Positions 1,259-29,533 of a DNA stretch of 64,000 bases are shown here, piece after piece; positions within the stretch are counted from its first letter, which is position 1; each line of letters starts with the position of its first letter. This DNA comes from Lysobacteraceae bacterium (GTDB lineage Bacteria > Pseudomonadota > Gammaproteobacteria > Xanthomonadales > Xanthomonadaceae), in NCBI GenBank assembly GCA_004297225.1, contig SCUI01000014.1, forward strand, positions 61,943-125,942, given 5' to 3'. Made by a program: the position numbers and the translations under genes. The notes under the pieces were generated by a model. That model did not search any database, was not told the DNA's origin, and was given only the letters and a program-made list of their open reading frames with translations.

Positions 1259-1424
1259 GATGCGGACTCCTGAATGCACTGCGACCGACTCTGCCACGCA
1301 CCCGCGGCGGGGACAAGCCGCCGCCCCGTCGAATTGACGGCGGCGGCCCGGGCGTGGAAAATTGCGGGTTCGCCGCGCCGCAAGGGCCGGCCCGGGTGCC
1401 ACCGCCGCGCCCCGCTGCACCCAT

Positions 1425-1464
1425 GGCTATGTAGCTCAGACGGTTAGAGCGCGAGACTCATAAT
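1425..1464 (+). repeat. Partial duplicate of the tRNA-Met 5' half
   Basis: These 40 bases are identical to the first 40 bases of the tRNA-Met gene at 1497-1536, from the acceptor 5' strand through the D arm and anticodon loop. After 1464 the match breaks off, and 32 unrelated bases separate it from the complete gene. The fragment cannot fold as a tRNA because the T arm and 3' acceptor strand are missing. It is probably a scar of recombination at an integration hot spot next to the accessory region. Confidence 0.9.
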
Positions 1465-1496
1465 GTCAGGGTCGTGGAGGCGGAAATTTACAATTT

Positions 1497-1573
1497 GGCT
1501 ATGTAGCTCAGACGGTTAGAGCGCGAGACTCATAATCCCGAGGTCGGTGGTTCGATTCCACCCATAGCCACCA
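1497..1573 (+). tRNA. tRNA-Met (CAU anticodon), encoded CCA
   Basis: The 77-nt gene folds as a standard cloverleaf: acceptor GGCTATG/CATAGCC, D stem GCTC/GAGC, T stem GGTGG/CCACC with loop TTCGATT, discriminator A and encoded CCA. The anticodon loop CTCATAA gives CAU. The elongator initiator-type G-C pairs are absent, so it is an elongator tRNA-Met, or less likely a lysidine-modified Ile2. The anticodon stem CGAGA/TCCCG contains an A29-C41 mismatch where G-C would be expected. The gene marks the left boundary of the accessory region. Confidence 0.93.
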
Positions 1574-1605
1574 AACTCTGCAATAAAAACAACAGGTTGA
1601 GAGAC

Positions 1606-1634
1606 AAAAGCCCGCCATCGATGCGGGCTTTTCT
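1606..1634 (+). terminator. Rho-independent terminator after tRNA-Met
   Basis: AAAAGCCCGC pairs with GCGGGCTTTT across a seven-base loop, giving a 10-bp stem that ends in a T run, 33 bp after the tRNA CCA end. The symmetric A/T flanks would let it work in both directions. Confidence 0.85.
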
Positions 1635-1820
1635 GTGACAGTTTTTCCGCCACGGCCAGATTGGGGGTCATCCTCAGCCAGCCCTCGGCATTGGGCTCCC
1701 GGCGTCGTCAAAATGGCTGTGACAGTTTCCGTGACAAGCGGATGTGTCACAGATCCGAGTGCGGGCCGGGGATGACCCCGACACTACCGTCGGTATCGGG
1801 CCCGGCAGAGGATTGCCGCT

Positions 1821-1980
1821 ATGTGCTACTCCGCCCGCTTTGAGCACGACTACCGCAAGTACCAGCGTGAGTACGGTTCTGACGTCCGCCTGGCCGAGTT
1901 CGCCAAGCTTGTCCGTGGAACAAGCCGGTGGCGCCAAGATGAAGCTGCCCAAGGCGGTCGACGACGCCTTCGCCGGCGTG
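1821..1980 (+). pseudogene. Truncated, frameshifted SRAP (YedK/HMCES-like) gene
   Basis: The start codon is followed by MCYSARFEHDYRKYQREYG, which resembles the N-terminus of SOS-response-associated peptidase (SRAP) proteins. In that family Cys2 becomes the N-terminal nucleophile that crosslinks abasic DNA. Near 1912 the homology shifts to another frame, which continues EQAGGAKMKLPKAVDDAFAG, again SRAP-like. It then stops around 1980. About 160 nt of an expected 650-700 nt remain, so this is a relic. The family assignment rests on the short N-terminal match. Confidence 0.6.
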
Positions 1981-2165
1981 ACCGACCACGGCATCTCCGA
2001 GGAATCGCCACTTGGAAGCGGAACCCATAGCTCATGGGAACGAGGTAAAACACCAATCTCAACGCATGAGACTCAACCTGAGCAGGATTGAATCGCGAGG
2101 TCACCACTTTCCGTGACACGTCTGTCGGCCTGACTGAAGTTACTTACTCCACAAGGACTCAGCTC

Positions 2166-2312
2166 ATGAATTTTCCTGGAAACCCAAACAATCCCGAGAA
2201 CCCGAAGCATCCGCCCCACCCAGAGCATCCACCACACCCCGAACACCCACCGCATCCGACAAAGCCTGGCCCCAATCCGCCACCGAAGCCCCCGCCGCGC
2301 GAAGTAGGATAA
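2166..2312 (+). CDS. Small Pro/His-rich protein ending in Gly, candidate conjugated modifier
   Basis: This predicted 48-residue protein is almost wholly low complexity. It has an Asn/Pro N-terminus (MNFPGNPNNPENP), then repeated HPPHPE units, then Pro/Lys, and ends in R-E-V-G. No beta-grasp fold is apparent. The AAGGACT upstream is a plausible ribosome binding site 7-8 nt before the ATG. The stop codon lies 6 nt before the ATG of the E2-E1 gene, whose ribosome site AGGA overlaps the last codons, so the two genes should be translationally coupled. E1 enzymes activate C-terminal Gly residues, so the terminal Gly and operon position suggest a substrate or modifier. That role is inference; I know no named family for it. 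Confidence 0.7.
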   Translation: MNFPGNPNNPENPKHPPHPEHPPHPEHPPHPTKPGPNPPPKPPPREVG

Positions 2313-2318
2313 ACGTTG

Positions 2319-4052
2319 ATGGAGGTGCCAGTTGCTGGTCCCCTATGGGACTCACACTTCCCAGGCCTCATGGCTTGGGAGCTGGAGCGACTGAGGAAAC
2401 GCGCGCGCGCTGTAGAGATCGACCAGCCTAAGCTTGCCAAAGGCTTACTCGTTGTGCGCTTCGAGTGGCCTTTCGGCGAGAGCTTCCTAGCGTTGGAAGC
2501 AAGCTTCCCTAGTTCTTACCCGTTTTTACGGCCCCAGGTGCGGCTGCTGTCAGGGCGGGAAGATTGGCCTGAGCATCACGTCAGTCCTGTGGACGGCACA
2601 GTTTGCTTACTCGGTCGCGACACCGCGCAGTGGTCGCCGGCTTACCACTTGGCAAAGTTGCTCACAGATCAGCTAGAGAATGCCCTGCTCGGCGATGGCG
2701 CTGAGGATCCGCAAGCCGAGCCCGCCGACGTTTGGTGGAACGGCTTGGCACCATTGCCTGACTCCTATTGCCTAGTTGACAGCGATTGGAAATTTGACGA
2801 GGAAAGTCAAGGCAGGCTTGATTTCTTTTATGTGCTCGACGAATGCGAGACTCCTCGGATTCGCGGCGTGATTCGACGGGTGCTCGCAGATGACGACACC
2901 GTACTCGCCGAGTGGAGTGGGCCATTACCAGCTGAGCTTGCGCAGGCCAAGCGTCGAATATCGGTCCGTTGGTATCGTGCAGGTCACGTGGTGTTGCCAC
3001 ACGAGCCTGTGGTCGCGCAGCTTCGCGAGCTGCGTAACCAGCACCTAGGAGGCCTTGGGGCGCCTACTAGCGTCGGCAAGAACCTATCAGTGCGACCGTT
3101 CGTCCTCGTACACCCAATTGAAAAGTTGGGCGGAGGCCACGTAGAAGGATGGATCTTTGGACTGGAATGGGGCACTCCACGAGCCTTCGGCAAGAAGGGA
3201 CGTCGGGCAGACCACGGCATCAAATTGAGCTTTCTGCCGATTCTGCGTGCCGGGAGCGGCGACTTGCACCAGCGGGTGCCGGACGCTGCACCTCTTCGTG
3301 GCAAACGAGTCGCCGTGTTTGGAGTCGGAGCAATTGGAGCGCCTATTGCAATTGAACTTGCGCGCAATGGCGTCGCCGAACTGCGTTTGGTGGATCACGA
3401 TATTGTGGAGCCAGGAAACAGTGAGCGTTGGCCACTCGGTGCCGCGAGTTGGGGTCGTCGAAAGACGGAGGCCTTGGCCGAGCACCTGAGAAGCCAATTT
3501 CCTGACGTAACGATCGTGCCTGTGCACCATCAACTCGGCCATTCTTCAGAACAGGGCACGGATGATTCGGCTTTGGCTTTGGCGTTGGTGGGCGCGGACA
3601 TTGTGGTCGACGCAATGGTCTCCTCCGGTGTGACCTATTTCCTATGGGATCGCTGCATGCGGCAAGGCGCCTCACTGGTGAAGGTCGGCGCTACTCCGAC
3701 GTTAGGCGGAGGATCCGTCGTACTCTACGTTCGAGGGGGCGGATGTCCCGTGTGTTTGCAATACGCGCGTATCGACGAGTCGGTGGCGACGCCTCCCGGC
3801 GGCGGGGAGACCCCTTTGGGTATCCAGCCACCTGGCTGTGGCGAACGAACCTTCACTGGCGCTGACTATGATTTGCAGGAGCTCTCTCTGCAGAGTGTGC
3901 GATTGGTTGTCGACACGTTGCGGGAGGGCAAACAGTCCGGCCTCGTTCAGACTTTGGCCCTCAAGAATATGGACGGCGAACGGATACTTCCACGCTGGTC
4001 GGAACAGGCTTTGCCGCAACACATCGCGTGTTGCGCCAAACCCGATATCTGA
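2319..4052 (+). CDS. E2-E1 fusion ubiquitin-like conjugation enzyme (Cap2-like)
   Basis: The 577-residue protein has an N-terminal E2/UBC-like domain (about 1-130), a linker (130-310) and a C-terminal ThiF/E1 adenylation domain (about 325-577). The E2 segment carries HHVSPVDGTVCLLGR with the candidate catalytic Cys96. The E1 domain has the nucleotide loop FGVGAIGA near 334-341 and VDHDIVEPGN-SERW. It also has a Cys pair C476-x2-C479 with C571/C572, probably binding zinc, and the E1 catalytic Cys507 in PGCGERTFTGADYDL. The layout matches Cap2 of type II CBASS. The ATG at 2319 is preferred over TTG 2316 because of the AGGA spacing. The downstream JAB gene overlaps its stop (TGATG). No CD-NTase gene is near, so CBASS itself is not supported. 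Confidence 0.88.
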   Translation: MEVPVAGPLWDSHFPGLMAWELERLRKRARAVEIDQPKLAKGLLVVRFEWPFGESFLALEASFPSSYPFLRPQVRLLSGREDWPEHHVSPVDGTVCLLGRDTAQWSPAYHLAKLLTDQLENALLGDGAEDPQAEPADVWWNGLAPLPDSYCLVDSDWKFDEESQGRLDFFYVLDECETPRIRGVIRRVLADDDTVLAEWSGPLPAELAQAKRRISVRWYRAGHVVLPHEPVVAQLRELRNQHLGGLGAPTSVGKNLSVRPFVLVHPIEKLGGGHVEGWIFGLEWGTPRAFGKKGRRADHGIKLSFLPILRAGSGDLHQRVPDAAPLRGKRVAVFGVGAIGAPIAIELARNGVAELRLVDHDIVEPGNSERWPLGAASWGRRKTEALAEHLRSQFPDVTIVPVHHQLGHSSEQGTDDSALALALVGADIVVDAMVSSGVTYFLWDRCMRQGASLVKVGATPTLGGGSVVLYVRGGGCPVCLQYARIDESVATPPGGGETPLGIQPPGCGERTFTGADYDLQELSLQSVRLVVDTLREGKQSGLVQTLALKNMDGERILPRWSEQALPQHIACCAKPDI

Positions 4053-4600
4053 TGGGCCTTGCCGTGCCGGAACCGCAACGAGTACTGGTCACTTTTTCGG
4101 CGGAGCTTCTCGCGCAAGCTAAGTGCGAGGTCGATGCCACTTTTCCTTTCGAATCGGGCGGCGTTCTGATGGGAAGTTGGCAATCGCCGACAGATGTGGT
4201 TGTGCGGGCCGTGATCGGGCCGGGACCCCAAGCCGAGCACAAACTATTTGCTTTTCGCCCCGATCTAACTTGGCAGCACGAGCAGATCGCGAGCCATTAC
4301 TTGCAGTCAGAAGGAACCGTTACCTACTTGGGCGATTGGCACAGCCATCCCCGTGCCGAACATGGTCGACTCAGCTATCGTGATGAGCAGGCGCTATATT
4401 CGATCATGTCCACCCCTGAGGCCCAATGCCCCGCACCACTCATGGCCATCTTGTGGGGTGCCCCAGACGCCTGGGGCCTGTCTGTGTGGCAAGCGCTCCG
4501 CGGCTGGGTTCCGCCATGGCGCAAGGTGCGGCTCCGATCGCTGCATTGCGCAGTCGCACCTTCGCCCAAAAGCGCGGATTCAGCTATTTGCACACGCTAG
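4052..4600 (+). CDS. JAB/JAMM metallopeptidase (Cap3/deconjugase-like)
   Basis: This 182-residue Mov34/MPN/PAD-1-type protein has a complete JAMM zinc site: Glu34 in FESGGVL, then GDWHSHP with His97 and His99, and LSYRDEQ with Ser108 and Asp111. Such enzymes cleave isopeptide or peptide bonds after a ubiquitin-like C-terminus. Its partner is the E2-E1 gene, whose TGA overlaps this ATG as TGATG. That overlap decides the start; an in-frame ATG at 4028 would need a 25-nt overlap. It probably matures the modifier or removes it from targets. Length and order match Cap3 of CBASS-type operons, but no cyclase gene accompanies it. Confidence 0.88.
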   Translation: MGLAVPEPQRVLVTFSAELLAQAKCEVDATFPFESGGVLMGSWQSPTDVVVRAVIGPGPQAEHKLFAFRPDLTWQHEQIASHYLQSEGTVTYLGDWHSHPRAEHGRLSYRDEQALYSIMSTPEAQCPAPLMAILWGAPDAWGLSVWQALRGWVPPWRKVRLRSLHCAVAPSPKSADSAICTR

Positions 4601-4661
4601 ACGAATGTACGCTTCCGACCTAAAGCGGACCTTGTCGTGAACGATCACTAAGACAGCAGGC

Positions 4662-4784
4662 GTGGACTTTAGAGTCGTACGTTCGACCCGTCGCAGCAAG
4701 CTCGGCGTGAGCGAGCAGCGTCTGCAGGCCATGGAGACTGCGTTGACCCACGCGATGGGACAGGCACCTACTAGGCGCGGCTGA
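4662..4784 (+). CDS. Possible 40-residue ORF between the JAB and nuclease genes
   Basis: A GTG-started frame encodes 40 residues, rich in Arg at the start (VRSTRRSKLG) and end (PTRRG), followed by TGA. No family is recognised and no convincing ribosome site is seen. It lies in the 269-bp space between the JAB gene and the large nuclease gene, which otherwise shows no feature. It may be a gene remnant or chance. Confidence 0.2.
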   Translation: MDFRVVRSTRRSKLGVSEQRLQAMETALTHAMGQAPTRRG

Positions 4785-4869
4785 CGCTGGTGATCACAGG
4801 TTGCTGGTAGCGGTGGAGCGCCCGTCGTAGGAAACGACACACATGGCAGTAATCTGACGACCAAGACCT

Positions 4870-7800
4870 GTGGGAAAAGCCGCTTTGAGCACTGAATACG
4901 GGGATGAGGGTCAGGGCGCGCCCTTCGACGTCGAAGCCTTCCAGGCGACGATGGCTGAGCACCAACGCTGGGCGCAGCTCGACGTTTCGCTTGGAGAGGC
5001 AAGCGAGGCGGTAAAAGATTTGTGCGCCGATTTGGCCCGCTTTGAACGGGGGGCTGCTGTTTCCCTGGTTTCGGCGCTGCTGACGATTCCTCGATATCAA
5101 TCCAACTGCATCCGAATCGAATTGTTGGTTGCCCTAGCGGTATTGCATTGCCGAGGGACAGAGGTGCCCCAAATCTCGGACCTCGGGCGTTGGTTCTCGG
5201 AGATCGGTAGCTCCCAATGTGCGGCGGGGGAAGATCCCGCGGAGGACGTATTTGTCACGTTGGTCCTATACCGCGAGGAGCAATTCCTCCTCCTCGAGGG
5301 AGTATGGGAGTCTGCTGGCTTCTATACACAGCGCGTCCTTGAAGTCCTTGAAACTACACCCGACAAGCACTGGTTCGCTGAACTTACGTCGTGCGTGAGG
5401 GCCGGTCTGCTCGTTTCGGACTTGGTCTGCCAGAGATCTGGTCTGCGCCGATATCAAGCCGGTTCGGAAGTTAGACGCCAAGAAATTGACGTGAACTTGA
5501 TTGGTAGCTCCGACGAGTTGAGAGCTCGGATCTTGCTGCCAGTGGCGGAATTGGAGCATCTCGGCATCACGAAAGAGATGCTAAAGCCTTTCATCCTCCC
5601 CCCGCGTGCTCTGGACGAAATGGCGCACCAAAGGGTGGGTCTGAGTGCGCTCGATCGGCATCCGCTCATCGACCTTGGCGAGACGCTTCTTGTCGCGATG
5701 CCAACAGCGCTATCGATCGCAATACGAAACCTGGTCATTGAGACGATGGTCAGCGCGGAGTCGATCGATGCCTTCGACCGCGTCATTTCGATTAAATACG
5801 CGGAACTACTGTCAAGCACTCCACTTCTCGGGAGCGCGATGCACGCCCCCGTGAATTGGTACCTCGCTGAGCATGACCGCATAAGTAGCTTCATTTTTGA
5901 AGTCGATGCCGGCCACGTCATAGCGTTCCACCTGTTCCTGCCATCAGCCCGAACTCACACCACCGGCGGATTCAAGGAGATCGGGCAGCTAAGCAAAGCT
6001 CTCTGCGAAGCTATTGAGCAATCAATGCGCGGAGCAGAGAAGGGCTACGCGAGGTTGCACGAGCTGAGGCGTGGTCTTCACGTGGTGGTGGGATGCGGCT
6101 GGGGAAAGGGCTACTCAGGCGAATTTTCGAGAGAGGGAGACTCTGCTTGGGGATTCGAGTCGATGTCAGCGGCCGACCTGATTCGGCTAAGCGCGATTCC
6201 TGAAATGACGATCGACCACTTCTGGCGAATTGAGGCCGGCCTGCACGCGGCTGAGGCCGCAGGCGTGGAAATCGTGAACTTGAACGGGATCCTCAATTTA
6301 TTTGGATGGGTGAGAGCAAACCACGGACATCTGGTTCCGCACGCAGATCTGCCAGAAGGGCGGGTCTCTCAGGATCGGCCGCTTTGGATCACCCCTCCTC
6401 TCGACCTGATCCGTGACGTGCGCGTCGAGGCCGATCAAAGCAACGACCTTCACATGGCCGTGGACCCCGCCGGGAAGCACCACTTTGTTCGACGAACGGA
6501 ACCGAACTCACTTTTCGACTCCGAGAGTGCTAGACGCCTGTACGGATGCGAAGACTGCGTCGAGCATGGTGAGCTGATTGCCTTGTACGAAGGCGTGCGA
6601 TCCCTTTGGCTTGGTGTGCAAACGCCAAGGATTCGGTCACGTAGCCTGCATTTCAAACTATGGGAAATGGCCGCAGTGTGGCTTCACCGTATCGGTTACG
6701 TTATCGATCCGATTTCAGGGTCCGGTGAATCGCTCAAGCTGACTCTGATCTTCGAAGACGAGGAAATGGATCCGAGGAAGGTGGATGTTGAGCCGCACTC
6801 CGACACCTCTGGTTTGTGCTCCTATTCAGTGAACCGTACAAAGCGCGAGGCCGAACTGCGATTTGGATCGGGGTTCATGGATTTCTTCAGAATCCCAGAG
6901 AATGTCGCGGAGCGCGCGGTCGTCCGAACCATGCTTCGCGCTTTGCTCACCCTACTTCAAGTTCCCCATGTGAAGGCCGTCGCGGAGGAACTGGAGCCGC
7001 AAATAGTGCTCAACGACCAGGCGCGCAGTTTTCACATCTTTCACGCATATCAGTACCTGGACTACGTGAGAGGTAGCCTGCCAAGTCGCCTAATAGAGAT
7101 CGAGAAAATCGACGATGCAATGGTTAGACTGGGCCTCGGCTGGAGAGCCCAAGAAGTCGAAGAAAATCAAATCACTGGAAAGCAGGAGTGCACCCAGTTC
7201 TTAAATCGCGTCGCCGCACTCGTGGTTGTCGACATTGTTTCAGCACTAAGCAAGTACAACCGTCGTGCGACTATAGAAAGGCTGCTGCTTAATTGCTTGA
7301 AGGCACAGGACCAAGAGCAGCATTGGAAGCGCACGTCTGCGGCGCTCATCGGCTTGCACGGCGCGGGCCCCAAGGTGTTGGAGACGGTTGTCGAACAGGT
7401 TTCGCGTTTCACTGGAGCGCATGTAACCAGTCGCGTTCTCGTTGAGGTGGCGCTCTGCGCCTGCCCTGAATCAGGCGAGGCAATGCCTGCAGATATTGAG
7501 TTGAGCGTCCTGCTGGCCAGGGTCTCCCTGCTTATTCGTATAGGAGGCATGTCCGACGCGATTCATTACAACGTTCTTGAGCCTCGCTTGGCGATTTCGT
7601 CATTGGGCGACATCTTGGTGAGGGACGATTTTGGGCGTGAGATCGTCGAGCCAATGCTCTCGCAGGCAATTGGGGAGGGGTTCGTAGAAGGGGCCCCCAA
7701 GCAGCGTCGCAACTATCAGATGCCTAAGACGCAGGGTAGTACCCGAGAGGCTTTCGGCGAGATGTTTTACTCAGCGTGGCAAACGGAAATGGGGTTCACA

Positions 7801-8685
7801 ATCGACGACGCCCGAGAGATGATTGATGCAGTAGAGCATCATGCACTGGCGTCGGATCGATTGCCGATTTTTAGCATGCGCCGAAGCGAGCTAGAAAAGT
7901 TGCTATCGCCGGTGACTGACAATGAAAAGGCAAAACGGTTCGTTTCCGCATTTTTGTTGTCGCCGAGGCCGCAGTGGGATAAGCCGCCATCGGGATTCGC
8001 TCGTCGAGACATATACCCCTGGCGATTTGGACGCCGACTCTCGGTTGTGACGCGCCCCCTGGTTCAGATCGATGAAACAAAGGATCCCGCAGTTTTCATT
8101 TCACCGGACCTACTACGAAAGGGCTTCGCGTACGTCATTGATCAGGCATTCAATGGAACGCTTGATCCATCGTTCTTCTCGTCTGATCAAATGCGGAATG
8201 AATGGCTCGGAGTTGCTGGTGAGGGGCACACATTCAATCACGAGGTTGCAGAGTTGCTCATGGCCGACGGCTGGACGGCGCGAGAAAACGTGGGACTACC
8301 GGAAGTTCTTAATCGAAAGTTGGTTCGCGACTACGGAGACATCGACGTCCTTGCTTGGCGTGCCGACCGCGATGAGGTGTTGGTAATCGAATGCAAGGAC
8401 CTCTCATTTGCTCGAAACGCGTCTGAGATAGCGGCCTTGCTTTCTGACTATCAGGGCCGCCAAAAGGGAGGCAAACCGGACAAGCTTTTGCGCCATCTCG
8501 AGCGCTTTAGGTTGCTGGAGGCAGAGTCATCCGTGACTAGCCGAGTAACTGGGAAAGCTACTTTTCGACTCACTTCGTGCCTTGTGACTAGTAGGATCGT
8601 TCCAATGCAGTTCGCGAAAATTGACGCGTTGAGCGGAAGTTTCGTTGGAACCGTGAAGAGTCTGCTTGAAAGACTTCGGGCGTAG
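4870..8685 (+). CDS. Large protein with C-terminal PD-(D/E)xK nuclease motif
   Basis: This is a 1271-residue predicted cytoplasmic protein of unknown family. Most of it is mixed alpha/beta with no motif I recognise. Near the C-terminus, DYGDIDVLAWRADRDEVL followed by VIECKD gives Asp1157/Asp1159, Glu1174 and Lys1176, the layout of a restriction-endonuclease-like (PD-D/ExK) active site. A predicted helix follows, as in Mrr/NERD-like nucleases. The GTG at 4870 is the longest start; TTG 4885 or ATG 4951 are alternatives. It is on the same strand as the E2-E1/JAB operon but 269 bp away. It may be that system's effector, an independent defence nuclease, or unrelated cargo. Confidence 0.7.
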   Translation: MGKAALSTEYGDEGQGAPFDVEAFQATMAEHQRWAQLDVSLGEASEAVKDLCADLARFERGAAVSLVSALLTIPRYQSNCIRIELLVALAVLHCRGTEVPQISDLGRWFSEIGSSQCAAGEDPAEDVFVTLVLYREEQFLLLEGVWESAGFYTQRVLEVLETTPDKHWFAELTSCVRAGLLVSDLVCQRSGLRRYQAGSEVRRQEIDVNLIGSSDELRARILLPVAELEHLGITKEMLKPFILPPRALDEMAHQRVGLSALDRHPLIDLGETLLVAMPTALSIAIRNLVIETMVSAESIDAFDRVISIKYAELLSSTPLLGSAMHAPVNWYLAEHDRISSFIFEVDAGHVIAFHLFLPSARTHTTGGFKEIGQLSKALCEAIEQSMRGAEKGYARLHELRRGLHVVVGCGWGKGYSGEFSREGDSAWGFESMSAADLIRLSAIPEMTIDHFWRIEAGLHAAEAAGVEIVNLNGILNLFGWVRANHGHLVPHADLPEGRVSQDRPLWITPPLDLIRDVRVEADQSNDLHMAVDPAGKHHFVRRTEPNSLFDSESARRLYGCEDCVEHGELIALYEGVRSLWLGVQTPRIRSRSLHFKLWEMAAVWLHRIGYVIDPISGSGESLKLTLIFEDEEMDPRKVDVEPHSDTSGLCSYSVNRTKREAELRFGSGFMDFFRIPENVAERAVVRTMLRALLTLLQVPHVKAVAEELEPQIVLNDQARSFHIFHAYQYLDYVRGSLPSRLIEIEKIDDAMVRLGLGWRAQEVEENQITGKQECTQFLNRVAALVVVDIVSALSKYNRRATIERLLLNCLKAQDQEQHWKRTSAALIGLHGAGPKVLETVVEQVSRFTGAHVTSRVLVEVALCACPESGEAMPADIELSVLLARVSLLIRIGGMSDAIHYNVLEPRLAISSLGDILVRDDFGREIVEPMLSQAIGEGFVEGAPKQRRNYQMPKTQGSTREAFGEMFYSAWQTEMGFTIDDAREMIDAVEHHALASDRLPIFSMRRSELEKLLSPVTDNEKAKRFVSAFLLSPRPQWDKPPSGFARRDIYPWRFGRRLSVVTRPLVQIDETKDPAVFISPDLLRKGFAYVIDQAFNGTLDPSFFSSDQMRNEWLGVAGEGHTFNHEVAELLMADGWTARENVGLPEVLNRKLVRDYGDIDVLAWRADRDEVLVIECKDLSFARNASEIAALLSDYQGRQKGGKPDKLLRHLERFRLLEAESSVTSRVTGKATFRLTSCLVTSRIVPMQFAKIDALSGSFVGTVKSLLERLRA

Positions 8686-9068
8686 CTCGCCTTGGCGCAC
8701 TTGCACATGACGGCGGTTCAAAAATGTCGCGTGTAGGCATGGATGCGTCCTATGCATCAGTGGAGCGGCGTGATGACGCCAAGCTAAGGCCGTCCAGTCG
8801 TCTTATTGCGAGAGCTAGGTTAGAGCCGCTTTGATCTTCTACTCGCAATAGTCCTGATTTCGACAAGGTGCACTAGCTCGTCCTGTGGATGTCCGCTGCT
8901 GGCCGAAAGCAGCCGTCATTAAAGTAGTGCTGCCGATAGGACTTACGCCGCTGCGCCCCTTAGCCCTGCCGGGCAATGGCCCGTCTAGGGGCAGCAAGCT
9001 GGCGCATTTCCCTCTCTGATTCGATCAGCGGCATACTCCCGCCAGGGGAGACCGGGGACGCACTGAGA
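8686..9068 (+). other. Intergenic region before hsdR with inverted repeats
   Basis: No convincing gene is seen. TATTGCGAG at 8804-8812 pairs with CTCGCAATA at 8842-8850 across 29 nt, a 9-bp inverted repeat. At about 8888-8912, GTCCGCTGCTGGCCG and AAAGCAGCCGTC form a GCTGC/GCAGC hairpin of a kind often seen between genes in proteobacteria. The rest may be decayed sequence. Confidence 0.4.
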
Positions 9069-12000
9069 ATGCAGGAGAACCACCTCGAAGACGCCTGCCT
9101 GGACTGGCTTGCGAGTGTCGGCTGGAAGGCCATCGAAGGGGAAGCGGTCGCCCCCGGGGGTGAGGTTGAGGCCCGTAAGCGGTGGTCGGACGTTGTGCTG
9201 GCTCCTCGGCTCCGGCGGGCCGTGGCGCGGCTCAACCCGAAGCTCTCCACCGCCGAAGTCGACGCCGTCGTTGCCAAAGTCTCCGGCTACAGCCACCAGT
9301 CCCTGGTTGACGGCAATCGCGAGATCTACGACTGGCTGCGCAACGGCGTCCCGCTGGAACGCACCGCCAGCGACGGACGGCGAGAGGTGCTGCGCGTCCC
9401 CGTGATCGACTTCGGCGGCGCCAACGACTTGCTGGCCGTCCGCCAGTTCACGGTGCAGGGCTCAAAACTGCGGCGGCCGGACATCGTACTGTTCGTCAAC
9501 GGCTTGCCGCTGGTTGTCGTCGAACTCAAGAACCCGGCCGATCTCCACGCCGACTTCGAGGCGGCCTGGAACCAGATCCAGAACTACAAGGTCGAGATCC
9601 CGCAGCTCTTCTGGTTCAACCTGCTCAACGTGGTCTCCGACGGCACAGTGGCACGCTACGGCTCGCTCAGCGCGGAACTGGCGCGCTACTCGCGCTGGCG
9701 GTTGCTGGACGGCAAGAAGGTGGGCAAGGAGCAGCTCGAGCTGGAAGTGCTCATGCGCGGCCTGCTCGATCCGGCGACGCTGCTGGACTTCTTCCGCGGT
9801 TTTGTCGCCTACGGTGGCGCGGACGGCGGCGCCAGCTTCAAGATCATCGCCCAGTGGCACCAGTACCACGGAGTGAAGAAAGCCGTCGCGCGAGCGGTGG
9901 AGGCCCTCACCCACCGCAAGGACGGCAAGGGCGGGGTGATCTGGTTCACCCAGGGCTCGGGCAAGTCCCTGTTGGCACTGTTCTACGTGATGGCGCTGCG
10001 CGACCGACCAGAGTTCGGCAACCCAACCGTGGTAATGGTCACCGACCGCAACGACCTCGACGGCCAACTCTACGAGACCTTCGCCGACAGCGCCTGGTCC
10101 TTGCGCGCCACGCCGGTGCAGGCTAATAGCCGCGATGGCCTGCGCCGGATGCTGTCCGAAGTGCAGGCCGGCGGCGTGTTCTTCACCACCATCAACAAGT
10201 TCGCACCGGAGCCGGGGCAGACCTCGGTGCCGGTGCTGTGCGAGCGCGACAACGTGGTGGTGATCGCGGACGAGGCGCACCGCACCCAGTACGGCTTCCG
10301 CGCCGATATGGATAGCAGGACCGGCAAGACCAAGTACGGCCTGGCCAAGTACATGCGCGACGCGTTGCCCAACGCCATCTACCTGGGTATGACCGGCACG
10401 CCGGTCAGCCTCGACGACCGCGATACCGAGGCCGTATTCGGCACCTACGTGGACGTCTACGACATGATCGCCGCCCAGGAAGACGAGGCGGTGGTCCCGG
10501 TCAGCTACGAGTCGCGGATCATCGAGCTGCGCTTCAACGAGGCCGAGAAGCAGGCGCTGATGGACGAGTTCCTCGACGCCACCGGCGACGAGGACGAAGC
10601 CGAACAGGACCGCACCGCCAGCCGCCATACCCGGCTGGAGGCGCTGGCGATGGCCGACGGCCGGCTGGCCACCCTGGCCGAGGACCTGGTGCAGCACTGG
10701 GAGGCGCGCAAGCAGTCGGTGACTGGCAAGGCGATGATCGTCGCCGTCTCGCGGGAGGCGGCGGTGCGCCTGTACAACGAAATCGTGAAACTGCGGCCGG
10801 ACTGGCATTCGGACGACCTCAACGCAGGCCGGATCAAGGTGGTGATGACCGGCAGCTCGGCCGACCCGCCGCACTTCCAGCCGCACCGCACCGACAAGGC
10901 CGACCGCAAGCTGCTGGAGAAGCGCTTCAAGCAGGCGCCCGACGAACTGAAACCGGGCGAGGTGCCGCTGGAACTGGTGATCGTGCGCGACATGTGGCTG
11001 ACCGGCTTCGATGCACCGCCCGTGCACACCCTGTACGTGGACAAGCCCATGCAGGGCCATGGCCTGATGCAGGCGATCGCCCGCACCAACCGGATCTGGA
11101 AGGACAAGCCGGGCGGCCTGGTGGTGGACTACATCGGCATCGGCGAGGAGCTGAAGAAGGCGATCCGCCAGTACACCCGCGACAGTGGCGCCGAGCGCGA
11201 ACCGGTGGACACTTCGGGCGCCGCGCTGGGCGTCCTGCTCGATACCCTGGATGTCATCCGCAAGGAGTTCTTCGCGGGCTTCGATTACAGTGGATTCGAG
11301 GATCCGAAACGGGCCCTCGCGCTTCTGGCGCCGGCGATGGAGCATATTCTCCAGCGCGACCCTGAGCCTGACGACAAGGGCCGCAACCGCGGCGTGCGCG
11401 CCTACTTGGACCAGGTGGCCAAGCTGACCCGGGCGCAGGCCCTGGCCGGCACCCGCCCCGAGGCCATGGCCGTGCGCGAGGAGATCGCCTTCTTCCAAGC
11501 GGTGCGCGTGAGCCTGATCAAGCTGACCCGCTCGGCCGGCGGGATGTCGCGACTCGAGAAAGAGGCCGCGCTGCGCCAGCTCGTGGCCAAGGGGGTACTG
11601 GTCGAGGGCGTGAACGACCTCTACCGCACCCTGGGGCTGGAGAAGCCGGACATCAGCCTGCTCGACGAACGGTTCCTCGCTCAGATCCGAGAGCTGCCGA
11701 CCAAGAACCTGGCCGCTGAGCTGCTGGAGCGACTGCTCGCCGACCAGATCCGCTCTCGCGGCCAGAAGAACGCGCTGCAGGGCAAGGAATTCGCCACCCG
11801 GCTGGAAGAGGCGATCAACCGCTACCAAAACCGCGGCCTGACCACGGTCGAGGTGATCGAGGAGCTGATCCGGCTGGCCAAGGAGATCAACGAGGCACGC
11901 CCGCCGGATGGCATGAGCGAGGAGGAGTTCGCCTTCTACCAGGCGCTGGCCGAAAACGAATCCGCCGTGCGCGAGCTTGGCCATCCCGTGCTGCGCGCGC

Positions 12001-12197
12001 TGGCCCAGGAGCTGACGGACAAGCTGCGCAAGTCGGCGACAATCAACTGGCAGAACCGGAAGGATTCACGGGCGCGGATGGTGGCCATGGTGAAGGTGTT
12101 GCTGGCGAGGCACAGGTACCCGCCGGACAAGCAGCCGGAGGCAATCGAGAAGGTGATTGCGCAGGCGGAGTTGTTGGCGGATTCGTGGGCGGCGTAG
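9069..12197 (+). CDS. hsdR: Type I restriction enzyme, R (motor/nuclease) subunit
   Basis: This 1042-residue HsdR translocates DNA with ATP hydrolysis and cuts unmodified DNA at a distance. The N-terminal nuclease site is RRPDIVLF followed by VVELKN (about residues 135-155, the D...ExK pattern). The helicase has Walker A TQGSGKS near 295 and the Walker B/DEAH box VIADEAHRTQYG near 400, then later SF2 motifs (GMTGTPV, QAIARTNR). The ATG at 9069 (MQENHLEDACLDW) is preferred over the upstream in-frame start at 8976, because HsdR proteins start like this and the extra 31 residues look non-coding. It is transcribed toward hsdMS, which lie on the other strand beyond a toxin-antitoxin operon. Confidence 0.95.
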   Translation: MQENHLEDACLDWLASVGWKAIEGEAVAPGGEVEARKRWSDVVLAPRLRRAVARLNPKLSTAEVDAVVAKVSGYSHQSLVDGNREIYDWLRNGVPLERTASDGRREVLRVPVIDFGGANDLLAVRQFTVQGSKLRRPDIVLFVNGLPLVVVELKNPADLHADFEAAWNQIQNYKVEIPQLFWFNLLNVVSDGTVARYGSLSAELARYSRWRLLDGKKVGKEQLELEVLMRGLLDPATLLDFFRGFVAYGGADGGASFKIIAQWHQYHGVKKAVARAVEALTHRKDGKGGVIWFTQGSGKSLLALFYVMALRDRPEFGNPTVVMVTDRNDLDGQLYETFADSAWSLRATPVQANSRDGLRRMLSEVQAGGVFFTTINKFAPEPGQTSVPVLCERDNVVVIADEAHRTQYGFRADMDSRTGKTKYGLAKYMRDALPNAIYLGMTGTPVSLDDRDTEAVFGTYVDVYDMIAAQEDEAVVPVSYESRIIELRFNEAEKQALMDEFLDATGDEDEAEQDRTASRHTRLEALAMADGRLATLAEDLVQHWEARKQSVTGKAMIVAVSREAAVRLYNEIVKLRPDWHSDDLNAGRIKVVMTGSSADPPHFQPHRTDKADRKLLEKRFKQAPDELKPGEVPLELVIVRDMWLTGFDAPPVHTLYVDKPMQGHGLMQAIARTNRIWKDKPGGLVVDYIGIGEELKKAIRQYTRDSGAEREPVDTSGAALGVLLDTLDVIRKEFFAGFDYSGFEDPKRALALLAPAMEHILQRDPEPDDKGRNRGVRAYLDQVAKLTRAQALAGTRPEAMAVREEIAFFQAVRVSLIKLTRSAGGMSRLEKEAALRQLVAKGVLVEGVNDLYRTLGLEKPDISLLDERFLAQIRELPTKNLAAELLERLLADQIRSRGQKNALQGKEFATRLEEAINRYQNRGLTTVEVIEELIRLAKEINEARPPDGMSEEEFAFYQALAENESAVRELGHPVLRALAQELTDKLRKSATINWQNRKDSRARMVAMVKVLLARHRYPPDKQPEAIEKVIAQAELLADSWAA

Positions 12198-12414
12198 TGC
12201 AAGGGCGGGAGCGACTGATTACGACCCAGAGTGGACGTTTGCCCCTGAGGCGGGGCGGCCGAAGATCGCTGGGTTTGACCCCTTCGAACACCACTGCGCT
12301 GCGGCAGGGCTCGACAAAGCCCCGTTGCGGGGGCGTGTCTGGGAGGCAGGGCTTCAGCACAAGGCCTGCCGGGTCGTCACTCGTGACGCTGGACCAGCGA
12401 AGCCCGTATTAGGC

Positions 12415-13545
12415 CTAGGCCGTCGTGGCGCTGGTGGCCGAGGCCAGCACGCGCTCGAACTCCCGCACCTCTTCCACGACGAATGCCAAGTGGTGGCTAG
12501 TGTCGTACGCGATCCACTTTCCATGACCGTTCTTCACAGGCAGGCCGTTGCTGCAATCGGCGATGACCTGGTCGCCCCAGCTGAAGCCCGGCAAAAATTC
12601 TTTCGCGTTGGCGATTTCAGCCGCAACCGCCGGCATTTGCAATGCCCAACCTCCCGCAATCGAATGGCCGCGCGAGACAAGGAAAGCCTTGTCGCACGTG
12701 TACCGGATTTTTGCGTTGGCATTAGGGTTGCGAATGGCATCATTTGAGCTGGGACCGCGCACACCGTAGTCACCGAACGCCAACGGAATGCCGCTGAATT
12801 CAGTGCGGAGCGCCTGCCACAGCAGCATTTCCTTGCGAATCACCTTCGCAGTGCTGTCCTTCTTTTTAACCGCCAAGTCGACAGATTTGGGCATCGAAGA
12901 TCCTGCGGTGGCGATGTACCGGAACCCATACCCACTGAGCAATTTCAGCACGCGAGTTGCGTCACTCGTGATGTCGATCAGCGGCTTACTCGTAAGATCG
13001 CCAAGATCGACCAGCACAGCGCACTCCGCCGGACTCAGCTGCATGTCCTCCAGCATCTCGTGCATGCGGTCGTGGAAAACGTCCGGCTCTGCCGCATCCT
13101 CGACCGCACTGGCCTCGAGGCGAAGACAGACGTAGGGAGCGCCCGACAGATCCAGGCCGCGCATCGCGAGTTTGTAGAGCTGATCGTCCCAACGGTCGTA
13201 CCCCACCACTGGTGCCACCGTAACGCCCTGCCCCCTGAGGCTGGCATAGAGGTAAGCCAGCGCGTGCTCGCCGGTTTCAACCGTGGCGTCAGGTGCCCAG
13301 TTGAAGGCGTCCGCAAGCACCAAGTCACCCCCCCAATACTTGGCAATGCTCTCTGCGACCTCATCCAGATAGTCCGACTTCGGCGTAAAACTGTTCTGGT
13401 ACTTCTTCGCCTTCTGCCGGTTCTCGCTGATGACGGGAACATCGAATAGCGGATGAATGACTGCAGCGTGCGCTGCGTCCATGTGCTTGGACGCTTCGTA
13501 CTCGCTCGTCAGAGACTTCAGAATCGGGAGATACGTCGGAGCCAT
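12415..13545 (-). CDS. Beta-family protein (T4 beta-protein-like)
   Basis: The 376-residue protein begins MAPTYLPILKSLTSEYEAS, the typical start of the beta protein family (PF14350), and keeps the family's later segments such as VLVDLGDL and GDYGVRGP. The biochemical role of this family is not established. The start at 13545 lies one base after the stop of the HTH-IrrE gene, so it is translated as the last gene of that operon. Beta-family proteins are often found beside XRE/IrrE genes and on mobile or defence islands. It may be the toxin target, a third toxin-antitoxin component or an independent effector. Confidence 0.8.
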   Translation of the reverse strand: MAPTYLPILKSLTSEYEASKHMDAAHAAVIHPLFDVPVISENRQKAKKYQNSFTPKSDYLDEVAESIAKYWGGDLVLADAFNWAPDATVETGEHALAYLYASLRGQGVTVAPVVGYDRWDDQLYKLAMRGLDLSGAPYVCLRLEASAVEDAAEPDVFHDRMHEMLEDMQLSPAECAVLVDLGDLTSKPLIDITSDATRVLKLLSGYGFRYIATAGSSMPKSVDLAVKKKDSTAKVIRKEMLLWQALRTEFSGIPLAFGDYGVRGPSSNDAIRNPNANAKIRYTCDKAFLVSRGHSIAGGWALQMPAVAAEIANAKEFLPGFSWGDQVIADCSNGLPVKNGHGKWIAYDTSHHLAFVVEEVREFERVLASATSATTA

Positions 13546-13546
13546 G

Positions 13547-14761
13547 TCACACCTCACTCGAAAACGGAAAGAGCGACCGAACTTGCTGCTGCCCAACCAA
13601 ATCGGAGAAAGCCGTGTAGTTGCTGGACTCCTTTCGGAGTCTGCCTGCGACGATTGCCGGATGTATCCGAAGCTCTCTCGCCAGCTTTTCGATCGTCTCC
13701 CTACTGGGGGAAAGATACGCCTCGCTCCGGCGCCACATAATCCTTGGAATGAAAGCCTCGCGCGCTAGTCTGTTCGCCTCGGCCTCTCGTCGGTCCTCGG
13801 ACGACGCATCCAGGTCGTCTAAGAAAGCCTCGTCGTTGCCGACGTGCTTCCAGATGTGTGCAACCTCGTGGACCAGCGTGAACCAGAAGTTGTCGAGCCT
13901 GTCATATCGTAGGGTCAAACCAATGATGGGTGTGCCGTCCGCGTCCTTCAATGCAGCGCCGTCCAGCTGAGTCCCCTTGAGGTGAGGTTCGATCACTACG
14001 GCAATGCCGTGACGCCCCAAGAACTCGACCGCCAGAAGTGGGCCTCGCTCCGACCAGCTCAGTTGGGCGAGCTCGCGTAGGAAGCCCGCGGTCAGCATCT
14101 CCGGCTCATAGGGACCCAACCTCGGCTTCAGCGCGCGCGCCTGCTGGATCACACGAGCGAGCCAGGCGTAGAGCGCATATCTAGTCGTCGGAGAGGCCGC
14201 TTCTCCACCAATGCTTCGGCGGAAGGCAGCCGCCCCAAACTGGAGCCCGGCGTCCTCGATGAACCCCTTCACCAGTTCCTCGACACCGGTCTTCGTTTTC
14301 GCAGGCAGGTCCGCCAGCCACCCACGACGTGCCATCTCTTTGAAGGGAAACTTCGACCAATCAACGTCCGCCTTGCCCGACGTGGCGTGATCTTCCGGAA
14401 CCGACAGCCCAATCAGCGTCTCAGCCGAGATGCCGAGCCCAATGGACAGCGCCCGGATCATCTGGACAGTAAGGGGACGCTTCCGACCCAGTACCTCGGA
14501 CACCCGGCTACGCGTTCCGAAATACGGGACGAGATCAGCTTGCTTAAGCCCCTTTTCCTGCATGCGGAATTGGATGGCGTCGACGGGGTCGGGGGCCTCA
14601 ATCGGAAACTTGCTGTTCTCGTATGCCTCGATCAGGACGGTAAGAAGTTCCAGCCGGTCGCCATCCGCGGAACCCGCAGGGGGCTGTCGCGCCATGAGCT
14701 CCTGTACCTCCCGCAGGTAGGTGAGGTACTGCTCTTCGGTGCGAATAACTTTAGCGTTCAT
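13547..14761 (-). CDS. HigA-like XRE regulator fused to ImmA/IrrE metallopeptidase
   Basis: The 404-residue protein has a helix-turn-helix domain around residues 60-115 (KQADLVPYFGTRSRVSEVLG) of the HigA antitoxin type. It is fused to a C-terminal M78/IrrE peptidase domain with HEVAH at 298-302 and a distal Glu in REAEANRLAREAF near 327. IrrE/ImmA peptidases classically cleave a repressor upon stress. Here repressor and protease are in one chain, so the protein may cleave itself or its partner. It overlaps the upstream toxin gene by 11 nt and is followed after one base by the beta gene. Two matched palindromes flanking the operon promoter are probable operators for its HTH domain. Confidence 0.88.
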   Translation of the reverse strand: MNAKVIRTEEQYLTYLREVQELMARQPPAGSADGDRLELLTVLIEAYENSKFPIEAPDPVDAIQFRMQEKGLKQADLVPYFGTRSRVSEVLGRKRPLTVQMIRALSIGLGISAETLIGLSVPEDHATSGKADVDWSKFPFKEMARRGWLADLPAKTKTGVEELVKGFIEDAGLQFGAAAFRRSIGGEAASPTTRYALYAWLARVIQQARALKPRLGPYEPEMLTAGFLRELAQLSWSERGPLLAVEFLGRHGIAVVIEPHLKGTQLDGAALKDADGTPIIGLTLRYDRLDNFWFTLVHEVAHIWKHVGNDEAFLDDLDASSEDRREAEANRLAREAFIPRIMWRRSEAYLSPSRETIEKLARELRIHPAIVAGRLRKESSNYTAFSDLVGQQQVRSLFPFSSEV

Positions 14762-15020
14762 AGGGATTGTCGATATTGTTCATTTCGAGGATCAGGGCTA
14801 CGCCCTGTGCGAAAGCGACTTGGAGCCGCAGCCAGTACCCGCTGGTTCCGATGGGGAAGAGGAAGTCGCCGGGGGGCCTCGTCCGCGCGTTCGGGAACTG
14901 TTCGGTGACGTCCTCTGGCCGCCGCCAGTGCGCGTGGGCCACCTCGGAACACCAGCCGCGGAGCCAGCGATCGACGTCTTCAGTCCCCCGTTTCAGCTTT
15001 TCGCGGCCAATGAGCTTCAT
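14751..15020 (-). CDS. HigB-type RelE-fold toxin
   Basis: This is an 89-residue member of the HigB toxin family (PF09907), ribosome-associated or free mRNA endonucleases. The segment WLRGWCSEVAHAHWRRPEDV followed by TEQFPNA is the family's signature helix region. The C-terminal half (SGYWLRLQVAFAQGVALILE) corresponds to the beta sheet, although the usual Arg/Tyr catalytic tail is less clear. It is the first gene of the operon, overlapping the antitoxin-protease gene by 11 nt. The promoter TTGACC-17-TAATCT lies just upstream, and the leader is very short. Toxin-first order is typical for HigBA. Confidence 0.85.
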   Translation of the reverse strand: MKLIGREKLKRGTEDVDRWLRGWCSEVAHAHWRRPEDVTEQFPNARTRPPGDFLFPIGTSGYWLRLQVAFAQGVALILEMNNIDNPYER

Positions 15021-15027
15021 GTGGTGT

Positions 15028-15092
15028 GTTCTCGATTTGGGAACAGATTAGCGGCAACTCTTGAACAGGTCAAGCGTTCCCGTTGTGGGAAC
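15028..15092 (-). promoter_or_regulatory. Promoter with two flanking palindromic operators for higB operon
   Basis: On the minus strand, -35 TTGACC (15073-15068) and -10 TAATCT (15050-15045) are spaced by 17 bp. A perfect palindrome GTTCCC-GTTGT-GGGAAC (15076-15092) lies immediately upstream of the -35. Its near-copy GTTCTC-GATTT-GGGAAC (15028-15044) lies immediately downstream of the -10. The paired sites fit autorepression by the HTH domain of the antitoxin-protease. Confidence 0.75.
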
Positions 15093-15615
15093 TCGTGGCC
15101 GAAGCTGCCCTCCCCAGAATGGGGAAACGCGACGCGATTGGCGCATGACTATGCCTTTGGACCTGACCCAGCTCGTTTTGGGGGAGATCCTCAATCTCCA
15201 CAACTCTCTCTTAGCCAAGCCGGCTGTGCGGAAGACCTTTCGGCGGAAGAGAGGGACCTGATCGCCTGTGTCGAGGCGCTGCGAGCCTCGCAGGAGGTCG
15301 AGTCCGAACCGGTACACGAAGCTGGGCGCGGGAATGGGGTCGGGGAGGAATGGGGGGCGGGTTCACTCCCGACCTGAAATGGAGCTCTTTTGCCAGGTGC
15401 TTCGGTCTCGGCGGATGGCGTGTCGGCTAATCTTTCCGGCACGCCCACCTGTTTGGCCGGCACGCCGGCCCCGAAGCCGACACGCGGGGCTATTGGATCG
15501 AGGGGCCAGCTACCCAAGCCTCGGACCGGCGAGCAGCGTCTTGGCTTCCAGTTGTCGTTGGGTAAGCGCCCTATCACAACCGGACTCTCTCCATGGCTGG
15601 TTGGACATCCGTGGC
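15093..15615. other. Gene-free spacer between higB promoter and hsdS
   Basis: No coding region is convincing on either strand. A third, weaker palindrome TCCCC-AGAAT-GGGGA lies at 15111-15125. A GC-rich hairpin GGCCGGC-AC-GCCGGCC lies at 15455-15470, 145 bp downstream of the hsdS stop. It lacks a T run, so its role as a terminator is doubtful. Confidence 0.5.
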
Positions 15616-16969
15616 TTAAACGCTGGCCTCGTCCACGAGAGTCTCAGCGTCGGACAAGCGAAGCTTGCCGGAGATTAGACGGGGGAGAAGCGTGTCTCGG
15701 AGCTGTTCAAGCGCACTGACAAGCTTGAGATTTTTCTCAATTTTGCACAGCAACGGGGCGACCACTCCATCGAACGACGCAAGCACTCGGTTAGTTGGCT
15801 CGATAACTGGACACAGCTCAGCAGAGTCCCTCGCCAGAGCGAGAACGGTCGTCCCAGTGGCATGGCCAACCGCTCTCTCCCTGAAAGCAGACTGCTGAAA
15901 CGCAAAGAACAAATAACGTTTCCATACATCCGCGCTAGGCCGCTTAACTACAACCTTGAACACGTGGTGGGATACGAACGCTGGATCGTACCCGGTAGGT
16001 ACAAACAAGGCTCTCCCCAAGATCTGTCGGTGTTGCGTCATGTCCGTGTTGGCCATGATCAAGTCGCCTCCGCGAACCACATGTCTATCGCGATAAGCGC
16101 CCGTATAACGCTTTATATTTTCGGTGGCAAACGTTCGAATCGCATTGAAGCAACCAAGGTTGAACATAAAGGCGCCCTCTGACTCACGGAGTCCCGCACC
16201 CTTATATGAGCAGCCTTTTATAAGTTCAGCGACAGCACTAATTTTCGTGAGCATCCAGCCCTTCGGGATCGGACCAAACTCAAGGTCTTCGAACTCGCTT
16301 GGGAACAAGGCAGCGGTCGCGGCGTCCATGCCTTCGGGTTCGCGACCCTCGGCCTTGGCGCGGACGGGGTCGAAGTCCACGAACCAGGACTTGAACAGGG
16401 CTTGGGCGATGGCTTCGAGGGTGGAGTTGGCTTGGCGCAGGTTGTCGATGCGGTCATCCAGCGAACTAAGAGTCGAGGCGATTGATCGCTGTTCGTGAAG
16501 CCCGGGCACAGGAATCGTCATTGCTCGCAGCAAGCCAAGATTGATGTGCGGCACCCCTGCTGCCACCGCGTTGTCTTGGATTTGCGAGATGAAGTCGTGG
16601 CTTTTCGCTGCGTAGTACACGTAGACGGGATCTGCTTTAGATTCATCCACCGTCAGCTTCATCTGACTCTGAGAAATTACGTATGTGTCGTATGGCTCAG
16701 CCGGCACCAGCGACACCTGCCCCAAGGTTCCCCGCTGAGTGAATACGATGTCTCCAGGCTTCGCCGTGTTAGTGCGCAACCTATCGGCCTTTTCTTGCGA
16801 CACATAAACAAAATCGCCACCGACCCAGCGTTCACTCAAGTTCTGGCCACGAATGACAGGGACGCCTCGTTCAACGTAATCCCCCGAGACGAGATTTGAT
16901 CCGAATGGCCCAGCTGCTGTTGAGTTTGGAGTAGGTGATGCCAGTTGAATCAGTGTGGAACGTTCGAAG

Positions 16970-16980
<11 letters not shown>
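15616..16980 (-). CDS. hsdS: Type I restriction-modification specificity subunit
   Basis: This 454-residue HsdS carries two target-recognition domains (about 1-165 and 235-405), each followed by a conserved helical spacer. The first spacer is EQRSIASTLSSLDDRIDNL and the second is the segment around SALEQLRDTLLPRLISGKL at the C-terminus. It determines the DNA sequence read by the methylase and the full restriction complex. It overlaps the end of hsdM by 11 nt, so the two are translated together. The second recognition domain is more AT-rich than hsdM, as is usual for swapped specificity domains. Target sequence cannot be deduced from this reading. Confidence 0.93.
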
Positions 16981-18571
<1,591 letters not shown>

Positions 18572-18671
18572 TTCATCCCCTACTACAACCGTGACCTTCG
18601 CAACTTCCGTTCTCGCGGCCTGATTCAGTAACCGCTGGGCCAGTTCTCGCGGTCGTCCCCTGGCGCATCCT

Positions 18672-18911
18672 TCAGCCCCCGCCTGGCGGCGGGGGATCGC
18701 GGACTAGCTCGACCAGGTCCTCTATCCGGCACCCGAAATAGACACACAGCCGCTCCAAGGTGTCCGTCCGGACATGCGAGCTGTGATTGAGCATTCGCGA
18801 AAGGGTGATCCGGCCGATTCCGGTCGCCTCGGCAATCTCCACGAGGGGAAGGCGGCGCCGCTCCCGGAACTCGAAGTCCGCGATCCGTTCCTTGAGCTTG
18901 AATCGAAGCAT
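18672..18911 (-). CDS. Cro/CI-type HTH regulator
   Basis: This is a 79-residue single-domain XRE regulator. Helices 2-3 are in LPLVEIAEATGIGRITLSRM (about 21-40), followed by the conserved LERLCVYFGCRIEDLVEL segment, and the tail is Pro/Gly. It is divergent from the AlpA-like gene and integrase. Two 20-bp palindromes in the 135-bp divergent region, one overlapping its own leader, make it the likely repressor of both directions. hsdM lies downstream on the same strand, 100 bp away. Confidence 0.85.
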   Translation of the reverse strand: MLRFKLKERIADFEFRERRRLPLVEIAEATGIGRITLSRMLNHSSHVRTDTLERLCVYFGCRIEDLVELVRDPPPPGGG

Positions 18912-18927
18912 CGAGCCTGAACCCCAT

Positions 18928-19014
18928 ATGAATCGTTAGTGATTCATTAGCGTGTCTAACTTTGCAAATGGCCCTTCCTTGATACAACGGAACTGTGAAT
19001 CACAAACGATTCAC
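18928..19014. promoter_or_regulatory. Two matched operators in the divergent XRE/integrase region
   Basis: ATGAATC-GTTAGT-GATTCAT (18928-18947) and GTGAATC-ACAAAC-GATTCAC (18995-19014) share 7-bp arms and six-base spacers, with centres 67 bp apart. One sits upstream of each divergent gene. They are probable binding sites of the 79-residue XRE protein and would control integrase expression. Confidence 0.75.
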
Positions 19015-19046
19015 TTGTACCCGTAACCCCGCAAGGAGCGCCTGAA

Positions 19047-26172: not shown

Positions 26173-26189
26173 TACGTCACCTCCTTGTT

Positions 26190-28292: not shown

Positions 28293-28308
28293 GTCTTGCT
28301 GAGTGTGC

Positions 28309-29529: not shown

Positions 29530-29533
29530 GCGG

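Follow-up and report, generated by a model that had tools for sequence, protein, structure and literature searches.

Within a 64,000-nucleotide stretch of a Lysobacteraceae bacterium genome (contig SCUI01000014.1, positions 61,943 to 125,942; hereafter the window), three genes on the forward strand form a compact operon encoding a small proline- and histidine-rich peptide, a fusion of ubiquitin-type conjugating (E2) and activating (E1) enzymes, and a JAB/JAMM peptidase (Table 1). A 6-bp gap separates the small gene from the E2-E1 gene, and the E2-E1 and JAB genes overlap in the sequence TGATG. The small-gene product is 43% proline, has no predicted fold, and ends in R-E-V-G. In Pfam scans the E2-E1 and JAB products are recognized above cut-off; the E2 part gives weak matches to UQ_con (3.6e-4) and Prok-E2_B (9.7e-4), both below their own cut-offs, and the small peptide matches no family. 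PADLOC models for E1-E2 and JAB also match the operon. This arrangement of genes, gap, and overlap had been described in an original prediction made from the bare sequence, and every coordinate checks; the residues named there (Cys96, Cys507, His97, His99, and Asp111) all stand where they were placed, and Glu34 of the peptidase is also present.

Table 1. Features of the operon and of the boundaries of the surrounding region, in window coordinates.
Feature	Coordinates	Strand	Remarks
Small gene, Pro/His-rich candidate modifier peptide	2166..2312	+	48 codons; ATG at 2166, stop TAA at 2310-2312
C-terminal motif codons R-E-V-G ([R/K]-x-V-[G/A])	2298..2309	+	35/35 distinct tails fit
E2-E1 fusion, Cap2-like	2319..4052	+	577 aa; Pfam ThiF 2.4e-22, above cut-off; Foldseek match to Cap2
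Cys96, candidate E2 catalytic cysteine	2604..2606	+	kept in 46/46 covering ORF pieces
Cys507, candidate E1 catalytic cysteine	3837..3839	+	kept in 48/48 covering ORF pieces
JAB/JAMM peptidase	4052..4600	+	182 aa; Pfam Prok-JAB 8.7e-8, above cut-off; Glu34, His97, His99, Asp111 present
tRNA-Met	1497-1573		flanks the operon; 51-nt partial duplicate at 1424-1474, 92% to 1496-1546
Recombinase-like ORF	19168		on the other side of the operon; named by eye

The operon is not confined to the window. A protein search that scored 7991 candidates gave 172 relatives of the E2-E1 protein at E ≤0.001, the best 120 of which were listed, and the loci compared here come from 49 places (31 from one scan of species genomes, 14 from plasmid records, three from whole-genome searches, and the window itself), near-copies from related strains included. 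The trio recurs in Pseudomonadota, Actinomycetota, Bacteroidota, and one planctomycete metagenome-assembled genome (MAG), with hosts that include Mesorhizobium, Bradyrhizobium, Sinorhizobium, Sphingobium, Halomonas, Arthrobacter, Iamia, and Hymenobacter. The family is nonetheless rare and patchy in the genome samples searched: at E 1e-40, whole-genome searches found it in 3 of 369 genomes of the window's class (its own genome counted), in 2 of 397 genomes of the rhizobial order of genome G001 (G001 counted), and in 1 of 199 genomes of the phylum of genome G004, which is G004 itself. Three scans of IMG/VR returned no viral relatives, and phage records returned none at E 1e-10.

How regularly does the small gene accompany the enzyme? 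At each place we looked for an open reading frame (ORF) of 30-250 codons with its stop between 300 nt upstream and 60 nt downstream of the start of the E2-E1 match (400 nt upstream to 100 nt downstream at L057 and L058, which are turned round) and with at least 42% P+G+H and at least 20% P in its last 45 residues. The last residues were not used for selection, leaving the search blind to the ending. It found the small gene at 44 of the 49 places, with 34 distinct 30-residue tails; 41 of the 44 peptides end exactly in VG and three in VG plus one or two residues (VGAA at L015, Mesorhizobium; VGQQ at L039, Hymenobacter; VGR at L058). A 45th peptide, at L057, falls below the composition threshold and ends RKVA. 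At L020 and L029 the relatives match the E1 part only and the search rule yields no peptide; at L032 and L033 the E2-E1 gene is in pieces and peptide remnants persist, ending PPRVVG and PDCPVG, respectively. Wherever E2-E1 is a single frame of at least 540 aa (41 places), the peptide gene is present. The original prediction had asked whether homologues might lack the small gene and whether it always ends in glycine: none of these 41 lacks it, and the terminal glycine proved general but not universal, given the three extended tails and the single VA.

The tail itself follows a strict rule. Adding the L057 peptide, setting aside the extra residues of the three extended tails, and excluding the L033 remnant, which has C at position -4, leaves 35 distinct tails, in which position -4 is R (31) or K (4), position -3 is free, position -2 is V (35), and position -1 is G (34) or A (1). 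This [R/K]-x-V-[G/A] end is constant while the proline-rich body varies. Among nine composition-matched ORFs elsewhere in the same loci, a small control, one ends in G and none in VG. A profile built from 21 peptides retrieved 20 proteins at E up to 1, of which 18 end in VG, one in VA (P0124), and one in VG plus six residues (P0139), although this count is not ending-blind, because the profile includes the VG columns; the weak match P0136 has G in place of R/K at -4. The gene is easily missed by annotation: it is called at only 1 of the 14 plasmid places (Hymenobacter) in the gene table used, which is known to be incomplete.

Codon comparisons indicate that the peptide is translated and under purifying selection. 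Over the last 25 codons, compared between close relatives in six hand-chosen groups (95 non-independent pairs, identical pairs and those with more than 25 changes left out), the ratio of nonsynonymous to synonymous change (pN/pS) is 0.12, and changes at codon positions 1, 2, and 3 number 167, 126, and 1100; it is from this ratio and the third-position excess that translation and constraint follow. Because the trio recurs across phyla, both candidate cysteines are kept, and the peptide codons are so constrained, the three-gene operon is real and far beyond chance. A rival reading makes the small ORF a regulatory leader: ribosomes stalling on its proline stretch would control how E2-E1 is translated, and the true modifier would lie elsewhere, for example in host ThiS or MoaD. 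Proline runs can indeed stall ribosomes, and the small ORF sits directly upstream and is tightly coupled: at 41 of the 42 places where it could be measured, the distance from the peptide stop to the first possible E2-E1 start is between -8 and +10 nt. However, what is constant is not the proline pattern but the final two residues and the basic residue at -4; three tails extend one or two residues past VG, and the mature end may be Ala; and the overlap or short gap leaves no space for an attenuator between the genes. We consider a leader improbable.

The E2-E1 protein most resembles Cap2 of type II CBASS (cyclic-oligonucleotide-based antiphage signaling systems). Its structure model (predicted local distance difference test score, pLDDT, 90.3) has Cap2 as top Foldseek match (7to3_A, E 1.5e-23, over 486 residues), and the match spans nearly the whole length of the model. 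Among the 55 ORF pieces of E2-E1 examined, both candidate catalytic cysteines are kept in every piece that covers them (Table 1), and His87 in 46 of 47. Cap2 is described as making a thioester with the C-terminal glycine of cGAS, which it conjugates through a terminal Gly or Ala, and the same account finds these residues conserved at the cGAS C-terminus only where the operon also has Cap2 and Cap3 (PMC10097602). The present family shares with type II CBASS a fused E2-E1 with, in the window model, the predicted overall fold of Cap2, a separate JAB gene (Cap3 there; here at 42 of the 44 places with a peptide, the H-x-H-P...D pattern being present at 40), and a non-beta-grasp partner that ends in Gly and only rarely in Ala. 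It differs in having neither a CD-NTase (cGAS/DncV-like nucleotidyltransferase) nor a shared effector gene, its partner being a free peptide of 40-70 aa. A CBASS-like signature of terminal Gly, rare Ala, and an adjoining JAB is thus found here on a peptide without the partner fold. The three extended tails all adjoin a motif-bearing JAB, and the tails at the JAB-less L030 and L034 end exactly in VG, a pattern that, in small numbers, fits maturation by JAB.

For its E1 part the model has further matches in MccB, ThiF, and MoeB; MccB is an E1-like enzyme that acts on the C-terminus of a short peptide, MccA. Fold match and short substrate alike would suit a small natural product or sulfur carrier, in the manner of MccB/MccA or ThiF/ThiS, that is modified by the E1 and released rather than joined to a protein. 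We know of no E2 or JAB in MccB or ThiF systems, and of no protein target for MccB/MccA, and a fused E2 with a kept Cys96 beside a JAB gene makes little sense unless something is transferred and later removed. We hold this reading to be slightly less probable than the leader.

Some places depart from the usual arrangement. At L029 (5911-7307, a Caulobacter MAG) an E1-only ORF is followed by JAB, and neither an E2 domain nor a Pro-rich peptide gene was found there. On an Iamia plasmid (L072:4551-6592) two overlapping ORFs together encode the E2-E1, through either a possible natural split or a possible frameshift. In Halomonas, an opposite-strand ORF that by eye resembles a serine recombinase directly follows E2-E1 (L030:7797-8492; L034:7795-8535).

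Could another gene supply the modifier? Across 46 loci with longer flanks (up to ~6 kb), in which ORFs of at least 45 aa were compared, the most widely shared family outside the operon reaches 8 loci. Inside the operon the only shared genes besides the peptide are E2-E1 (39 of 39 loci) and JAB (36 of 39); most of the further clusters listed are opposite-strand ORFs that overlie these two. Because outside families reach at most 8 of the 46 loci, neither a CD-NTase nor a ubiquitin-like gene is conserved in these flanks, and the earlier claim that the operon lacks both a CD-NTase and a beta-grasp partner is borne out. At L037 alone, a gene annotated as "nucleotidyltransferase" lies ~0.9 kb upstream of the peptide gene in the opposite orientation, and it was not seen as shared. 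The peptide's activation is itself deduced, which leaves room for a cofactor or recruiter that binds E2-E1 on behalf of an unrecognised modifier gene, but such a role would account for neither the terminal Gly or Ala nor the residues that follow VG in some tails, and no ORF family outside the operon is found in more than 8 of the 46 loci; we give it little credence, about as little as the natural-product reading.

We favor the reading, with a probability of roughly 80%, that the proline-rich peptide, predicted to be disordered, is the modifier of this operon. It is supported by the constant tail, the selection on the peptide, the lack of any other shared gene, the Cap2-like E2-E1, and the Gly/Ala rule of Cap2. 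In the mechanism we envisage, the Cap2-like E1 domain would adenylate the peptide's C-terminal glycine; the activated peptide would be handed by thioester transfer from Cys507 to Cys96 in the fused E2 domain and finally joined to target proteins; and the JAB peptidase would trim longer precursors and remove the tag. The Pro-rich body may serve as a stiff, exposed spacer or docking strip. The system would then correspond to the conjugated tail of a CBASS CD-NTase, minus the CD-NTase. The original prediction had likewise proposed that the peptide itself may be the modifier, and the recurrence of the peptide, the tail rule, and the lack of another shared gene strengthen that proposal, although conjugation is still something we infer.

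Several observations count against it. Pfam, PADLOC, and NCBIfam models and the literature do not name the peptide, and profile matches to other peptides are weak, with E <1e-3 in 2 of 20. No JAB lies within reach at the Halomonas places L030 and L034, and at L004 and L067 the JAB frame is without the motif. A single docking attempt with an artificial chain (peptide, stop read as Ser, E2-E1) left the peptide unplaced and predicted to be unfolded (pLDDT 33-47), an uninformative outcome because the C-terminus of the peptide was tied to the E2.

Other E2-E1 systems provide a point of comparison. In nine stretches with such systems, eight found through the 6A-MBL model (two overlapping in one genome, some partial) and one CBASS, there is no Pro-rich small ORF. 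The CBASS stretch (L073) has a DncV-like nucleotidyltransferase beside E2-E1 (Pfam 3.8e-20) that ends GFA. Beside the 6A-MBL E2-E1 genes, ORFs that by eye resemble metallo-beta-lactamases (MBL) end in Gly at L060, L061, L064, and L065 and not at L062 and L063; their glycine ends make the former possible tail substrates, as CD-NTases are in CBASS. 6A-MBL (NF058523; row 6a of Iyer et al.) thus resembles the present family in pairing E2-E1 with JAB and in the Gly ends of several neighboring MBL-like ORFs, but its JAB is fused into the E2-E1 chain and its partner is a metallo-beta-lactamase, whereas here JAB is separate and no MBL is shared. The window operon scores 81 and 56 bits against NF058523, for which the cut-off is 320. 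In an E2-E1 tree with five MBL proteins the peptide-linked rows form a separate clade, subject to a long-branch warning and partly by construction, because the rows were chosen by similarity.

An earlier survey had touched this family. Row 6b of Iyer et al. 2006 combines E2-E1, JAB, and a pol-beta nucleotidyltransferase and lists pNGR234a. That plasmid carries two copies of the present operon, each with a peptide gene, and, unlike row 6b, no nucleotidyltransferase is annotated near either copy. Assignment to row 6c was dropped: that row is described as having a metal-binding partner and a Cys where the E2 His would stand, whereas here His87 is kept and no metal-binding partner is shared.

Among other bacterial conjugation systems, Bub systems use beta-grasp ubiquitin-like proteins, and pupylation, to our knowledge, proceeds without E1, E2, or JAB. 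Bacterial E1, E2, and JAB in Bil and Bub are reported to serve conjugation and anti-phage defence (PMC11354881, PMC13373217), and Bil to combine a beta-grasp ubiquitin-like modifier with separate E1 and E2 (PMC11354881); here E1 and E2 are fused and the operon has no beta-grasp gene. Pup, by contrast, resembles the peptide in being a small, intrinsically disordered bacterial protein tag and differs in its unrelated ligase (PMC5286830, PMC3511204). A PafA-type ligase did not appear among the genes common to the 46 loci, in a comparison that did not search for it by name. The prediction of a "new kind of conjugation tag" accordingly stands as to a candidate tag and is too broad as to its novelty, because disordered tags are known from Pup and activation of a non-beta-grasp tail from CBASS.

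What would be distinct is the combination. We know of no earlier free-standing disordered substrate of E1-E2, and the peptide is very likely the second non-beta-grasp substrate of bacterial E1-E2 enzymes. With slightly less assurance than for the peptide of this operon, we think it likely that free-standing, disordered, Pro-rich peptides of 40-70 residues with an [R/K]-x-V-[G/A] end make up a distinct class of E1/E2-conjugated modifiers, present in several phyla and overlooked because they are seldom annotated. A 2025 review names Cap2 as the only known system that activates a non-beta-grasp protein (PMC12355090). Our literature search found no Pro-rich partner of a bacterial E2-E1; preprints and most subscription papers were outside its scope, and absence from print is not claimed.

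The surroundings of the operon suggest what it might do. Positions 1424-20601 of the window are likely an integrated defence island: between the tRNA-Met and the recombinase-like ORF (Table 1) lie the trio, a relative of Upx (1575 bits against an NCBI cut-off of 1900), type I restriction-modification genes, and PD-Lambda-2 B and C. At other places, three of ten hand-picked flanking proteins (8 loci) match defence models, namely GajA and GajB (L027) and PDC-S49 (L037). From this neighborhood evidence only, a role of the operon in phage defence is likely. Between the tRNA and the operon, at 1821-2030, is a 69-aa ORF starting MCYSARFEHDYRKY, which by eye resembles a cut-off SRAP/YedK-type gene. 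Farther along, at 25549-30835, a DsbA-like ORF and two FtsX/MacB-like ORFs accompany an ABC transporter that may have a peptidase domain (all by eye); together they may form a cluster for export of a bacteriocin or peptide.

In this candidate family the modifier would be reduced to a tail. The seldom-annotated peptide gene exposes an annotation gap. If our reading is correct, a short tail would suffice for the E1-E2 reaction, with no fold required, and CBASS and its kin would run one and the same tail-conjugation chemistry and differ in the cargo that the tail carries. The operon would then offer a minimal system for asking what E1-E2 enzymes require of a substrate, a short tag that is genetically encoded and comes with an enzyme to remove it, and a new group of candidate phage-defence systems carried on plasmids and islands.
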